From Ferroplasma acidiphilum (lineage in GTDB: Archaea; Thermoplasmatota; Thermoplasmata; Thermoplasmatales; Thermoplasmataceae), in the NCBI RefSeq assembly GCF_002078355.1, contig NZ_CP015363.1:434001-498000 (forward strand): a stretch of 64,000 nt of DNA, read 5' to 3'. The notes under the pieces were generated by a model. The model saw only the letters and a program-made list of their open reading frames with translations, had not been told where the DNA came from and searched no databases. Within the stretch, counting starts at the first letter, position 1. Every line of letters starts with the position of its first letter. Positions 1,329 to 5,701 of the stretch are shown here, piece after piece. The translations under genes and the position numbers were made by a program.

Positions 1329-1940
1329 TTACTCGTGTTCTGCATTGCGTTTTTCAAGTTCGGCATCGATTTCATCATCTTTCTCTGCTGGCTTATTGCT
1401 TTTTGCTGATCTCTTTGTCAGGAAATTGGTCAGCAATTCATCCTCGGAGATTGGTGAATCTGAATTTTCACTGAAACCAAGGTTTTCATTTATGCGCTCC
1501 ACCTGATCGTTTATAGAGTTAAGGTTATTGTCAGCGATATCCTTGATGCTTGCAAGTGATCTGAGATAACTTGCCTGCTGGTCCGGTGTAATTTTAAGTG
1601 CCTGGAATACAACCTCACTTTTTCCAATAAGATCCATAGCTTTTCCAGCATCGTTATACATATCCAGCTGTGATGATATGGAATCTAAGAGTATGTTGGT
1701 ACGATCGAAATATGTAGTAAATGCCCTTACGTCTTCTATCTGCTTTTCAAGGCCACGTTCAATATCGTTATAATTCCTTTCCTGAGCAGCCTTTCTGCTC
1801 TCTTCCAGGGACTGCGCCCTTTTTAAAAGGGCCCTTATTGCCCTTTTTAAATTCATCTGTAAATCCTTAATTTTGACTTTAGTTTCTTCCAGCTCTTCGT
1901 CCTTTGAGAGCTTGGGTTTTTTCTTTGGCAAAATAGACAT
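1329..1940 (-). CDS. Snf7/ESCRT-III-like coiled-coil protein (CdvB-like candidate)
   Basis: A 203-residue, almost entirely helical, charged protein. A basic N-terminus (KKKPKLSKDEE) is followed by a long Arg/Lys-rich helix (about residues 18-60), further amphipathic helices (70-150) and an acidic C-terminal tail with many Glu/Asp. This basic-core, acidic-tail layout is that of ESCRT-III (Snf7/CdvB) subunits, which polymerise on membranes and are remodelled by Vps4. No clear proline-rich MIM2 motif is visible. An MIT-AAA ATPase is encoded 1.2 kb away on the same strand, which strengthens the idea. ATG 1940 is chosen over an upstream in-frame start because a TATA-like ATTTATTA lies about 30 bases upstream. 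A generic coiled-coil protein is the alternative. Confidence 0.55.
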   Translation of the reverse strand: MSILPKKKPKLSKDEELEETKVKIKDLQMNLKRAIRALLKRAQSLEESRKAAQERNYNDIERGLEKQIEDVRAFTTYFDRTNILLDSISSQLDMYNDAGKAMDLIGKSEVVFQALKITPDQQASYLRSLASIKDIADNNLNSINDQVERINENLGFSENSDSPISEDELLTNFLTKRSAKSNKPAEKDDEIDAELEKRNAEHE

Positions 1941-2175
1941 AATATTTATAGTATTTACGTGATAATAAATATTTCGGTTTAACCATACTGCCTCATATCT
2001 TCTGTTGCGTATAATTTTCATATGGATATTTTATCTATATATAATATAATATTCAGGAACCCAGCAGGAAGCTGCTACCATCTGTTTATAATAATATTAT
2101 TTTATTAATATATTAAATATGTAATTATTAATACAGGCAAATATTATATTCCGAATAAATATGTTGTAGTAAAAT

Positions 2176-2652
2176 ATGTCTGTTAAAAATAATAATTTTA
2201 AGATAATAATAATTATTGCAATATATGCCACGATATCTTCAATCATTGCCAGCTCAGTAATGATAGTCATTGAACTACTCGGGCTTAAAATTCTGCTACT
2301 CTATATAATTTCATATGCTATAATTATGGCAACAGATATCGCCATTCTTTATTATGCGATAGAGATCATAATGGAAAGATACACTAAAATGCTCAAAATT
2401 ATCAATGAACCGGTAGCAAATGCACCCAGACCCGGTGTTGAAAGAAAAGCTATAGAGTTAACAGATTCTGAAAGCGCAATTGTATCCATACTTGAGAAGA
2501 ATAATGGCAGAATAATGCAGAACTCATTAACAGGCAAAACAGGCTATTCAGCTCCAACAATATCGAGAATTTTAACCACTTTAGAAGAAAAGGGTGTAAT
2601 AGATCGTAGAAGGCATGGCATGACAAATGAAATATCTCTTAAAGAAAGGTGA
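2176..2652 (+). CDS. Membrane-anchored winged-helix DNA-binding protein
   Basis: A 158-residue protein with two predicted transmembrane helices (about residues 8-35 and 37-63) and a C-terminal winged helix-turn-helix (about 95-158). The recognition helix region reads SAPTISRILTTLEEKGVIDRR, typical of MarR/IclR-like wings, with basic residues right after it. The DNA-binding part would face the cytoplasm. Such membrane-tethered regulators are common in archaea. It is divergent from the Snf7-like gene and followed closely by a small membrane protein with a SHOCT tail. Target and signal are unknown. Confidence 0.65.
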   Translation: MSVKNNNFKIIIIIAIYATISSIIASSVMIVIELLGLKILLLYIISYAIIMATDIAILYYAIEIIMERYTKMLKIINEPVANAPRPGVERKAIELTDSESAIVSILEKNNGRIMQNSLTGKTGYSAPTISRILTTLEEKGVIDRRRHGMTNEISLKER

Positions 2653-2709
2653 AATATATTTCAGTGAAATGCATTTCAGATAACAGTTAAAAGCTTTTTC
2701 AGGATACAT

Positions 2710-3075
2710 ATGCATGGAAACAAAAAAATAATCTGGCTAATAATAGGGCTGGCAATATTTGTAGTGGCACTGAGTATGGTGTCTTTCTTCCTGTACGGGA
2801 GGCCGGACATAGCGACTCGTTATTCAGGAGTCTATCCATCAGCAACTGGATTTCCCGGCAGGTTCGCATTTATAATCATGCCCGTGATGGCAATTATATC
2901 TATATTAATCCTTATACTTTTTGTAAGGTTTATTATGAGAATGGCCGGTGGAAGCTCATGCCGCAGGGATATGATATATGACAACTCTGAAGCAATATTG
3001 AGAGAAAGATATGCAAAGGGCGAGATATCAGAGGAGGAATATAAAACAAGGCTGAACAATCTGAAAAACCATTGA
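2710..3075 (+). CDS. Small membrane protein with C-terminal SHOCT domain
   Basis: A 121-residue protein with two membrane helices (about 8-28 and 52-76) and a short C-terminal SHOCT module (about 90-119: ILRERYAKGEISEEEYKTRL), a motif found at the ends of many bacterial and archaeal proteins and thought to help oligomerisation. A short Ser-Ser-Cys-Arg-Arg linker precedes it. It starts 58 bases after the membrane-anchored winged-helix gene, so the two are probably co-transcribed. Its function is unknown; a membrane scaffold or stress protein is a guess. Confidence 0.65.
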   Translation: MHGNKKIIWLIIGLAIFVVALSMVSFFLYGRPDIATRYSGVYPSATGFPGRFAFIIMPVMAIISILILILFVRFIMRMAGGSSCRRDMIYDNSEAILRERYAKGEISEEEYKTRLNNLKNH

Positions 3076-3119
3076 ACTTTAAATTAATTTTTTTATAATT
3101 TTATAATTTTTTATGTACT

Positions 3120-4217
3120 TTACAGATTTAAGATATAATCCTGGTATTTTCTAAGAAGCCCTGCATCTATGGATGGCCGTATCTGTGAAATGACTTCCAG
3201 CAAATCATCTGTGGACACATCAATTTTATTGCCTGTTTTTATTACTTCCATAAATACATTCTGTACAGCTTTCTTGCATATAAATTCTATATCAGCTCCA
3301 GAATACCTCTCTGTTTTATTTGCAAGTTCATCATAATCAATATGGTCTATGTGCTTAACCTCTGAAAGCTTCAACTGGAAAATTTTCTTTCTTGATTCAT
3401 AGTCCGGTGGTGGAATATATATCTTTACATCAAATCTTCCTGGCCTCATAATTGCCTCATCGATTCCCCAGGGATTATTCGTTGCGGCTATGATAAATAC
3501 GTTTCTGTCTTTCTGGGATGTTAACCCGCCAACTTCGGTGAGAAGCTGTGAAACACCTCTCCTGGCAGCATCAGATTCTGAGCCTGACCTCTTTGGCACC
3601 AGCGTATCGATCTCATCAAAAAATAATATGGATGGTGATAATAGATAGGCAGCACGGAAAAGGAGGGAAATATTTTTCTCAAACTGGCCGAACCACTGGC
3701 TGTAAAGTGTTGATGGATTTACATTTATAAAATTGGCTTTTACTTCATTCGCAATAGCCTTAACGATGAAGGTTTTTCCGGTGCCTGGTGGGCCATAAAG
3801 AAGCATGCCGCCGCTGAATTCAATATTATATTCCTGTGATAGCTCTTTATACCGCATAGGGTATATTATCTTTGACATAATCTCTGTTTTTACATTTTCT
3901 AATCCAGCAACATCCTGAAATGTAACTTTTGGAATCTCAGGTGGCTCTATATTCAATGTCCCAAGTATCTTTTTCCCCTCAGAAATCCTGTCCTCCTCAA
4001 CAGCTTCTCCACCTATGGATTCATATATTTTTTTAAGGTTGGCTGCCTGCTCCAGCCTTTTCTGTTTTATTTTTCCCGTTGACCTGGAAGCTATTTCCAG
4101 AACCTCCTTATATGCTGCCTTATAAGTTTTGGCTGCTTCATTTTTATTCCCTGAGGATTCCTCCTCAATTGCTTTTCTAATCAGAAGGCTTACATGGTCA
4201 ATTTTTGTTTCAGTCAT
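3120..4217 (-). CDS. MIT-domain AAA ATPase, Vps4/CdvC-like
   Basis: A 365-residue ATPase. Residues 1-75 form a helical hairpin typical of an MIT domain. The AAA module follows with Walker A GPPGTGKT, pore-loop region (SQWFGQFEKN), Walker B ILFFDEID, sensor 1 (AATNNP) and arginine-finger region (RPGRFD). A C-terminal helix resembles the Vps4 C-terminal extension. One MIT plus one AAA domain is the Vps4/katanin (meiotic) clade layout and is shared with crenarchaeal CdvC, which disassembles ESCRT-III polymers. ATG 4217 has GGAG seven bases upstream and overlaps the preceding gene by 8 bases, so the two are translationally coupled. A Snf7-like gene lies nearby. Confidence 0.85.
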   Translation of the reverse strand: MTETKIDHVSLLIRKAIEEESSGNKNEAAKTYKAAYKEVLEIASRSTGKIKQKRLEQAANLKKIYESIGGEAVEEDRISEGKKILGTLNIEPPEIPKVTFQDVAGLENVKTEIMSKIIYPMRYKELSQEYNIEFSGGMLLYGPPGTGKTFIVKAIANEVKANFINVNPSTLYSQWFGQFEKNISLLFRAAYLLSPSILFFDEIDTLVPKRSGSESDAARRGVSQLLTEVGGLTSQKDRNVFIIAATNNPWGIDEAIMRPGRFDVKIYIPPPDYESRKKIFQLKLSEVKHIDHIDYDELANKTERYSGADIEFICKKAVQNVFMEVIKTGNKIDVSTDDLLEVISQIRPSIDAGLLRKYQDYILNL

Positions 4218-4662
4218 AGTACTGCTCCGTGTCATCAACATTTACCGATGTCTGGCTGTATAGTTTTGTATGTTTCCACCCGCATGAAATAAAATCAAGC
4301 TTTAACTTAACAATGTAATCATTGGGAAATATGGCATAAGAAGTCAACTTTATGGCTATCTGTTTTGGGAAAAAAAGGTAATCCTTGGCTTCTTCACCCT
4401 GTCCACTATAAAATATCATCTTTACCCGACTTCCAATAATCTGGGTGTAATCCTTTGGCCCTGTACGTATCTGGGGGTTCAGGCTCTCATTCTCATCAAT
4501 AAATTTCTTAATCTGTTCAATGGTTCCATTCAGTAAACAGCCCACCTTAATTGTATACATTTCAAGAACCTTTTTAGGGACATTAATGTAAACTTTCGAA
4601 GCAAGTTCATTTTCCATTTCATGATCCGATAACCGGATTAATGTCCGCACGATAAGGCTCAT
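4210..4662 (-). CDS. Unknown protein coupled to the Vps4-like ATPase
   Basis: A 150-residue protein of unknown family, with no membrane helix or signal peptide. The first half (VYINVPKKVLEMYTIKVGCLLNG) resembles a small beta-rich module and may bind protein or nucleic acid. The rest is mixed beta strand. The start ATG 4662 is supported by AAGGAGAATT directly before it. It overlaps the Vps4-like gene by 8 bases and so is made together with it. This coupling suggests a partner or adaptor of the ATPase, but nothing in the sequence proves it. Confidence 0.65.
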   Translation of the reverse strand: MSLIVRTLIRLSDHEMENELASKVYINVPKKVLEMYTIKVGCLLNGTIEQIKKFIDENESLNPQIRTGPKDYTQIIGSRVKMIFYSGQGEEAKDYLFFPKQIAIKLTSYAIFPNDYIVKLKLDFISCGWKHTKLYSQTSVNVDDTEQYYD

Positions 4663-4807
4663 AATTCTCCTTAAATATAATAATATCACATTATTTAACT
4701 TTATTTGTGTATTGTTTTATATTATCAGGTAGTTATCAATAGGTGAAGTACAATCTGAGTAATAACCGATAAGCTTTAATTCCCCAATCAATTACGTTAA
4801 ATATATC

Positions 4808-5701
4808 ATGGAATCATATGAAGTAAAGGAAATGCCAATCTCCTATAGCAGGGAAATAAAATTATCATTCTGTGCAGTAGCGGATGAAATTTCAGACCAG
4901 ATGAAAAAATCACTTGAAAGCATAATAAATGTGGCTGAGGAGATAGGATACCCTTATGAACTTGTGATAACTACCCACATTCCTGTAGATGTTAAATCAG
5001 ATAAAATTAAATTTATCAATGAAGCATTTACCACACCGGGTGCCGGGAAACAGCTGGCATATATTCATAGCAATGGAAACTACCTGATAATATTTAACCC
5101 ATATAATATATACAGCCCTGAAACATCGGACGTTGTTCACAGTTTTCTTGAAAAAAGGGAAAAAAGGGCGTTAATATATAATTTAATCGTAATTTCACGT
5201 GATCTACTGGATAAAACCGGGGGATGGAGAGATCTACGGGAGTATGAGGATATAGACCTTCTAGCCAGAATTGCAGCAGAAGGTGGTATTGTGGCATTCC
5301 CGGCAGAGCGGTATGATTCTTTATTGTACAGGGTTCCAGATAAAGAATCGTTTATAGATAGATTCTTAAATTTCCGCGACGCCATAATCTCATGCAATTT
5401 TGGTTTGAAAGATATAAAAATATTCCATATCGAGCCATTTTATGTATCGTTCATATCCTTGCTGTTGAGCAAATTATCAAGAACGAAACCTTACAAATTC
5501 AAGGAAAATAATCGTATAATAGTTATGGAAGGCATAATGGAATCGTTGATTTTGAAGGATTTTGAAAATTATTTCATTCCTGTAACTATTCCAAAACTAC
5601 ACATCAGCTCTACCGAGCTTAATTATATGGAAAAAAGGAGTTACCTGTGGAACAAAGTTAATAAAAGCATTATGGAAATAATACAGGTCAGTGATAATTA
5701 A
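4808..5701 (+). CDS. Glycosyltransferase family 2-like protein (GT-A fold)
   Basis: A 297-residue protein with features of GT-A glycosyltransferases. The N-terminal part (about 20-100) has the alternating strand/helix pattern of a nucleotide-sugar binding fold. The segment GGWRDLREYEDIDLLARIAAEGG (residues about 138-160 in outline) carries the Glu-Asp of the family 2 acceptor-side motif. A clear DxD metal motif is not obvious; the equivalent place reads FNPYN. The C-terminal 100 residues are unassigned. It stands alone, with its own upstream region. A role in glycolipid or S-layer-like glycoprotein synthesis is a guess from the family. Confidence 0.55.
   Translation: MESYEVKEMPISYSREIKLSFCAVADEISDQMKKSLESIINVAEEIGYPYELVITTHIPVDVKSDKIKFINEAFTTPGAGKQLAYIHSNGNYLIIFNPYNIYSPETSDVVHSFLEKREKRALIYNLIVISRDLLDKTGGWRDLREYEDIDLLARIAAEGGIVAFPAERYDSLLYRVPDKESFIDRFLNFRDAIISCNFGLKDIKIFHIEPFYVSFISLLLSKLSRTKPYKFKENNRIIVMEGIMESLILKDFENYFIPVTIPKLHISSTELNYMEKRSYLWNKVNKSIMEIIQVSDN

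Follow-up and report, generated by a model that had tools for sequence, protein, structure and literature searches.

We have identified a three-gene ESCRT module in a 64,000-nt stretch of the Ferroplasma acidiphilum genome (bases 434001-498000 of a 1.83-Mb single-contig genome; hereafter, the window). ESCRT is a membrane-cutting machinery that is used in human cells too, and FtsZ is the usual division protein. The module encodes an ESCRT-III protein, a Vps4-type ATPase and a small beta-barrel protein. We judge it to be the minimal ESCRT system of Thermoplasmata and, on balance, most likely the division machine of a wall-less genus that lacks a detectable FtsZ. The system is already known, since both the triad and the division proposal were described by Makarova et al. 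(2024; PMC10936438), who defined Vps4, ESCRT-III and the beta-barrel protein arCOG07400 as the Thermoplasmata minimal ESCRT system, named Ferroplasma, noted its missing FtsZ and proposed a role in division. To this we add how the module is distributed across 117 genomes of the order, the exclusion of two inserted genes from it, and three new details. In the F. acidiphilum lineage alone, ESCRT-III has diverged to an extreme degree; the barrel protein has a paralogue, encoded beside an XPD-like helicase; and uncultured relatives carry a larger ESCRT locus that also encodes a membrane double-GTPase and a GAP1-like protein.

The core genes run on the minus strand in the order barrel, Vps4, ESCRT-III. 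The table of open reading frames places them, as well as two intervening membrane-protein genes on the plus strand, where the initial annotation had put them. The features of the locus are as follows (aa, amino acids; AF2, AlphaFold2).

1329..1940, minus strand: ESCRT-III (Snf7/CdvB-like) protein, 203 aa; family profile, hhalign, AF2, Foldseek
1963..1977, minus strand: BRE/TATA-like element ccgaaatatttatta, 23-37 nt 5' of the ESCRT-III start codon; kept in 5 lineage loci
2176..3075, plus strand: inserted pair outside the module, winged-helix gene (2176-2652) and SHOCT gene (2710-3075); gene order
3120..4217, minus strand: Vps4-type ATPase, 365 aa, with MIT at about residues 12-54, one AAA module at 138-269, and lid; Pfam/NCBIfam
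4210..4217, minus strand: overlap of the barrel stop and Vps4 start, 8 nt, ATGACTGA; sequence
4210..4662, minus strand: small beta-barrel protein, 150 aa; AF2 model, position upstream of Vps4
4676..4708, minus strand: AT-rich block upstream of the barrel gene; conserved in 5 lineage loci

The three core proteins

The 203-aa product had been annotated as a Snf7-like helical protein, with a profile and structure comparison against Snf7 and CdvB suggested as a check. By itself, the protein has no Pfam Snf7 match, and a search alone against the PDB gave a weak match to CdvB (E 0.047). A Pfam Snf7 search of its own genome likewise found no match, so that a family profile was required; the missing match reflects a detection threshold, not a structural definition. 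The profile was built from 16 syntenic proteins, the window protein and its counterparts from 15 other genomes, and it matched CHMP3 (E 1.9e-6) and CdvB (E 5.5e-5) in the PDB. Eleven of the 16 members match Pfam Snf7 (PF03357; best 5.9e-11), all of them from outside the F. acidiphilum lineage, and the five members from within that lineage do not. The AF2 model (pLDDT 74) has helices at residues 13-54, 58-107, 109-114, 119-154, 166-180 and 188-202. This is the helix order of ESCRT-III, with a long alpha1-alpha2 hairpin, alpha3-alpha4 and C-terminal helices. The top nine PDB matches of the model in Foldseek were all Sulfolobus CdvB or CdvB2, the best being CdvB (E 0.011, probability 1.00). The model is of moderate confidence, and the fold match is support rather than proof, because the top matches have E values of about 0.01-0.07 and TM-scores of 0.37-0.45 and the alignment behind the model included the orthologues. 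Membership of the protein in the ESCRT-III (Snf7) superfamily is well supported by family profile, synteny and modelled fold taken together; the annotated Snf7 likeness thus holds for the family and is not visible in the single sequence.

Across the whole window genome, a profile search detected one ESCRT-III. The protein is predicted to polymerize on membranes and to be disassembled by Vps4. Its C-terminal helix (residues 188-202, DDEIDAELEKRNAE) lies where a MIT-interacting motif would sit. Read by eye, DDEIDAELEKRNAE resembles the classical motif loosely, and the likeness is closer in sister genera (e.g. KLNQLLKDI), which makes the helix a lead for such a motif.

The identification of the 365-aa ATPase as Vps4-type is well supported, in agreement with the Vps4/CdvC layout that had been annotated. 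The AAA domain (PF00004) was matched at E 1.5e-40 and AAA_lid_3 at 3.2e-9. The combination of an N-terminal MIT domain with a single AAA module, by which Vps4/CdvC is recognized, was found; the MIT match is at E 0.0033 in the window protein, below the Pfam cut-off, and at 1.2e-6 in an Acidiplasma-type orthologue. The Vps4_C oligomerization helix was not listed for the window ATPase at E 0.01 and appeared weakly (0.0075) in one homologue (L053; codes beginning with G and L denote the genomes and loci compared). The CdvC model (NCBIfam NF041006) aligned over 14-361 of 370 positions with 217.8 bits, which is far below its equivalog cut-off of 650, and the ATPase is therefore a Vps4-type relative and not a Sulfolobus CdvC. 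Placement of this ATPase type as Vps4 rather than Cdc48 was taken from PMC10936438.

The 150-aa barrel protein has no Pfam, NCBIfam or PDB-sequence match, and its family profile found no match in the PDB. The AF2 model is confident (pLDDT 82.4, pTM 0.79) and mainly beta, with two short helices. Foldseek returned nothing for it at E <= 0.001; the best 50 matches listed, led weakly by Sen1-type helicase barrels and FAD-synthetase/siderophore-reductase barrels, included no PRC-barrel (CdvA-type) structure. The third protein of the published minimal system is the beta-barrel arCOG07400 (PMC10936438), and from its description, genus and gene position we take the window protein to be this protein. 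The paralogue lies at 1489267-1489656 of the window genome (L150:5265-5657), directly downstream of the XPD-like (DEAD_2) helicase gene, and this pairing occurs in five genomes of the genus. Two Picrophilus-like genomes, a label judged from the pattern published in PMC10936438, carry the paralogue type only, not adjoining an XPD-like helicase. The Picrophilus arCOG07400 protein has been named as the only division candidate of that genus (PMC10936438), an idea that is weakened by this restriction to paralogue-type barrels.

Conservation of the core and its probable role in division

Among the 117 genomes of the order, the barrel profile found 24 and the ESCRT-III profile 39. All 24 barrel-positive genomes have ESCRT-III, encoded near the barrel and Vps4 genes, and every locus inspected has the barrel gene and Vps4 on the same strand, with the barrel gene immediately upstream. 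ESCRT-III mostly follows Vps4; it precedes the barrel gene in G050 and G083, and in four Thermoplasma-like genomes it is about 5 kb off on the other strand. The three-gene core is conserved far beyond chance, and the annotated module of ESCRT-III, Vps4 and a third, coupled protein is borne out. A second genome of the same species (G060) encodes a barrel protein identical to that of the window. The 8-nt barrel/Vps4 overlap recurs in G061 and G066, and an overlap of this kind makes translational coupling of the two genes plausible. All five F. acidiphilum lineage loci retain the AT-rich block at 4676-4708, the probable promoter of the barrel-Vps4 unit. In one draft genome (G096:C10:75493-76362, L046) a stop codon interrupts Vps4, and either a misassembly or decay of the module may account for it.

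FtsZ/tubulin (PF00091) was found in 101 of the 117 genomes. It was undetected in all ten genomes of the window's genus, all three of the sister genus (Acidiplasma-like), both Picrophilus-like genomes and one half-complete genome. The 13 genomes of the first two genera all carry the triad. The association of the triad with FtsZ absence has a Fisher P of 1.7e-8; the genomes are related, and the association therefore amounts to about one evolutionary event. CdvA (PF18822) was undetected in the ten genomes of the genus, with Sulfolobus acidocaldarius as positive control.

Several points weigh against a role in division. The triad occurs together with FtsZ in 11 genomes, including all five Thermoplasma-like ones, and so the module is not division-specific everywhere; in these Thermoplasma-like relatives it may act in scission or vesicle release. 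The Picrophilus-like genomes show neither the triad nor FtsZ, so that a cell must be able to divide with neither of them. In the window ATPase, the MIT match falls below the Pfam threshold. A 2022 survey (PMC8970359), which mentions Thermoplasma homologues of CdvB and CdvC, argued against a Cdv-type division system built from the Cdv-like proteins of euryarchaea, and an experimental study of the triad was not found in the literature searched.

The first two points also favor an ESCRT membrane-remodelling system whose chief task is to release vesicles, repair membranes or turn over proteins rather than to divide the cell, since FtsZ-positive genomes keep the triad and Picrophilus-like ones divide without it. 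Against this, the triad is retained in every one of the 13 FtsZ-less genomes of two genera, and no cargo-sorting components are encoded beside the module, an argument that is shared with PMC10936438. We consider such a main role rather unlikely. The initial annotation had left the choice between division and vesicle release; division becomes the leading hypothesis because FtsZ is undetected in the genus, although the proposal was not new, having been made in PMC10936438.

If the module does serve division, ESCRT-III would polymerize on the inner membrane, as a ring or a spiral, and act as the constricting filament. The barrel protein would recruit or regulate ESCRT-III and Vps4; this adaptor, CdvA-like role is proposed for it because CdvA is undetected and the barrel always travels with ESCRT-III and Vps4. 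The MIT domain of Vps4 would bind the C-terminal helix of ESCRT-III, and Vps4 would strip subunits from the filament. It is this removal of subunits that is proposed to make the ring constrict and sever the neck between daughter cells. We infer the filament, the MIT contact, the adaptor role and division alike. A more specific version for Ferroplasma is possible rather than probable and is offered tentatively. In it, the three proteins are the core of a division machine without FtsZ or CdvA; the barrel takes the place of CdvA as adaptor for both site and membrane, and one rapidly remodelled ESCRT-III does the work of both the guiding and the constricting filament of Sulfolobus. If the triad does carry out division, ESCRT division arose outside the Cdv lineage using three genes, and a very small gene set would be at hand for in vitro reconstitution.

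Divergence of ESCRT-III and the inserted gene pair

Within the F. acidiphilum lineage, the three proteins have evolved at similar rates, with identities of 79-86% for ESCRT-III, 79-87% for the barrel and 84-92% for Vps4. In comparisons of the lineage with the remaining half of its genus and with the sister genus, identity is 65-74% for Vps4, 33-42% for the barrel and 15-19% for ESCRT-III. The stem branch of the lineage measures 2.68 for ESCRT-III, 0.85 for the barrel and 0.25 for Vps4 in the respective trees. A stem so long, yet with normal identity within the lineage, would suit a replacement of the resident gene by a foreign ESCRT-III. However, the place and strand of the gene match those of the sister species, the protein aligns co-linearly with the orthologues and shares R33/R36 with them, and searches with a profile restricted to the lineage, covering 293 genomes of the phylum as well as viral contigs, turned up no donor. 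The plasmid collection searched gave no match. Replacement is thus improbable, and a burst of change in an orthologous ESCRT-III is clearly favored over it. Co-evolving rates of the barrel and ESCRT-III were also considered, the barrel stem of the lineage being long too; the branches of G064 and G050/G083 follow another pattern, and no claim of such co-evolution is therefore made.

That the 203-aa product is a coiled-coil protein unrelated to ESCRT-III, merely sitting in its place, is very unlikely. Such a substitution would accord with the missing Pfam Snf7 match of the single sequence and with the 14-19% identity to the syntenic proteins of sister lineages, against 65-74% for Vps4 in the nearest genera. 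In hhalign comparisons, however, the lineage profile matched the syntenic orthologues at E 2.7e-5 over 163 columns and an independent ESCRT-III family at 4.3e-6 over the N-terminal 88 columns, whereas the controls (two coiled-coil families, a third helical family and 120 column-shuffled profiles) reached P 0.018 or worse. A more distant third ESCRT-III-like family gave P 0.019 against the lineage, within the control range. The Foldseek ranking headed by CdvB and CdvB2 likewise argues against an unrelated protein, even though the orthologues sat in the alignment of the model.

The two plus-strand genes encode a MarR/DUF7343-type winged-helix membrane protein (2176-2652) and a SHOCT membrane protein (2710-3075; PF09851, 31.3 bits). 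They had been put forward as new accessory genes, with conservation of the five-gene order suggested as a check. When gene order was compared across genomes, only the window's species (two genomes) had the pair separating Vps4 from ESCRT-III; it is absent from that position in the sister species G061, where the gap between Vps4 and ESCRT-III is 284 bp, and in every other genome examined. Winged-helix homologues occur in 59 of the 117 genomes, away from ESCRT loci. A five-gene module with both membrane proteins as working parts, suggested by their position between two core genes in this species, is hardly credible given their opposite strand, the absence of the pair elsewhere and the spread of the winged-helix family at non-ESCRT loci. 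Gene order and these other loci exclude the two proteins as module parts; the pair is a species-level insertion. The ccgaaatatttatta element is kept in all five lineage loci although the sequence further upstream varies, and it is the putative promoter of the ESCRT-III gene. With this element kept, the insertion has probably left ESCRT-III with its promoter.

On the other side of the core, at 4808-5701, lies a gene for a protein of 297 aa that weakly resembles a glycosyltransferase (E 0.05). Almost every genome of the genus, and one of the sister genus, has it next to the barrel gene, possibly as a neighbor by inheritance only.

Larger ESCRT loci in relatives and comparison with known systems

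A larger ESCRT locus is present in the uncultured genera g3, g4, g5, g8 and g9 of the same family (loci L085-L103, e.g. L090:1025-7371 and L097:4815-14046). It comprises a second-type Vps4 and ESCRT-III, a membrane-anchored double-GTPase (PF19993/PF19975), a GAP1-type protein, a protein of about 620 aa and, in about half of the loci, a protein of about 490 aa. PF19975 was matched in all 12 double-GTPases scanned and PF20013 in five of ten GAP1-type proteins. The double-GTPase occurs in 18 of the 117 genomes, 16 of which have ESCRT-III by profile; of the remaining two, G082 shows a weaker ESCRT-III match next to the GTPase. In 17 of the 18 genomes, no more than a few kb separate the GTPase gene from Vps4 or ESCRT-III. 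DO-GTPase/GAP1 systems have been defined as bacterial conflict systems (PMC7159879). No report of a link between GTPase/GAP1 and ESCRT was found, and it is absent from the main texts of PMC10936438 and PMC7159879. Two loci of the same genera (L100:4710-9291 and L104:2678-7352) hold two different MIT/AAA-type ATPases in tandem; a helical protein, a short coiled-coil protein and an ESCRT-III-like protein that has diverged very far are encoded with them.

Among known systems, the 'main' euryarchaeal ESCRT clade (Vps4, ESCRT-III, the arCOG09748 winged-helix protein and kinases; PMC10936438) shares Vps4 and ESCRT-III with the window module, beside which, unlike in that clade, no winged-helix ESCRT-II-like protein, kinase or phosphatase is conserved. 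The Sulfolobus CdvABC system (CdvA, CdvB/B1/B2, CdvC) shares ESCRT-III and the MIT-AAA ATPase, and the modelled window fold is nearest to CdvB/CdvB2. In contrast to Sulfolobus, the genus has no detected CdvA, one ESCRT-III was found, and the ATPase scores far below the CdvC equivalog cut-off. With the Thermoplasmata minimal ESCRT system, the window module shares the same three components, the genus and the suggestion of division in FtsZ-less species, and it does not differ from that system in kind.

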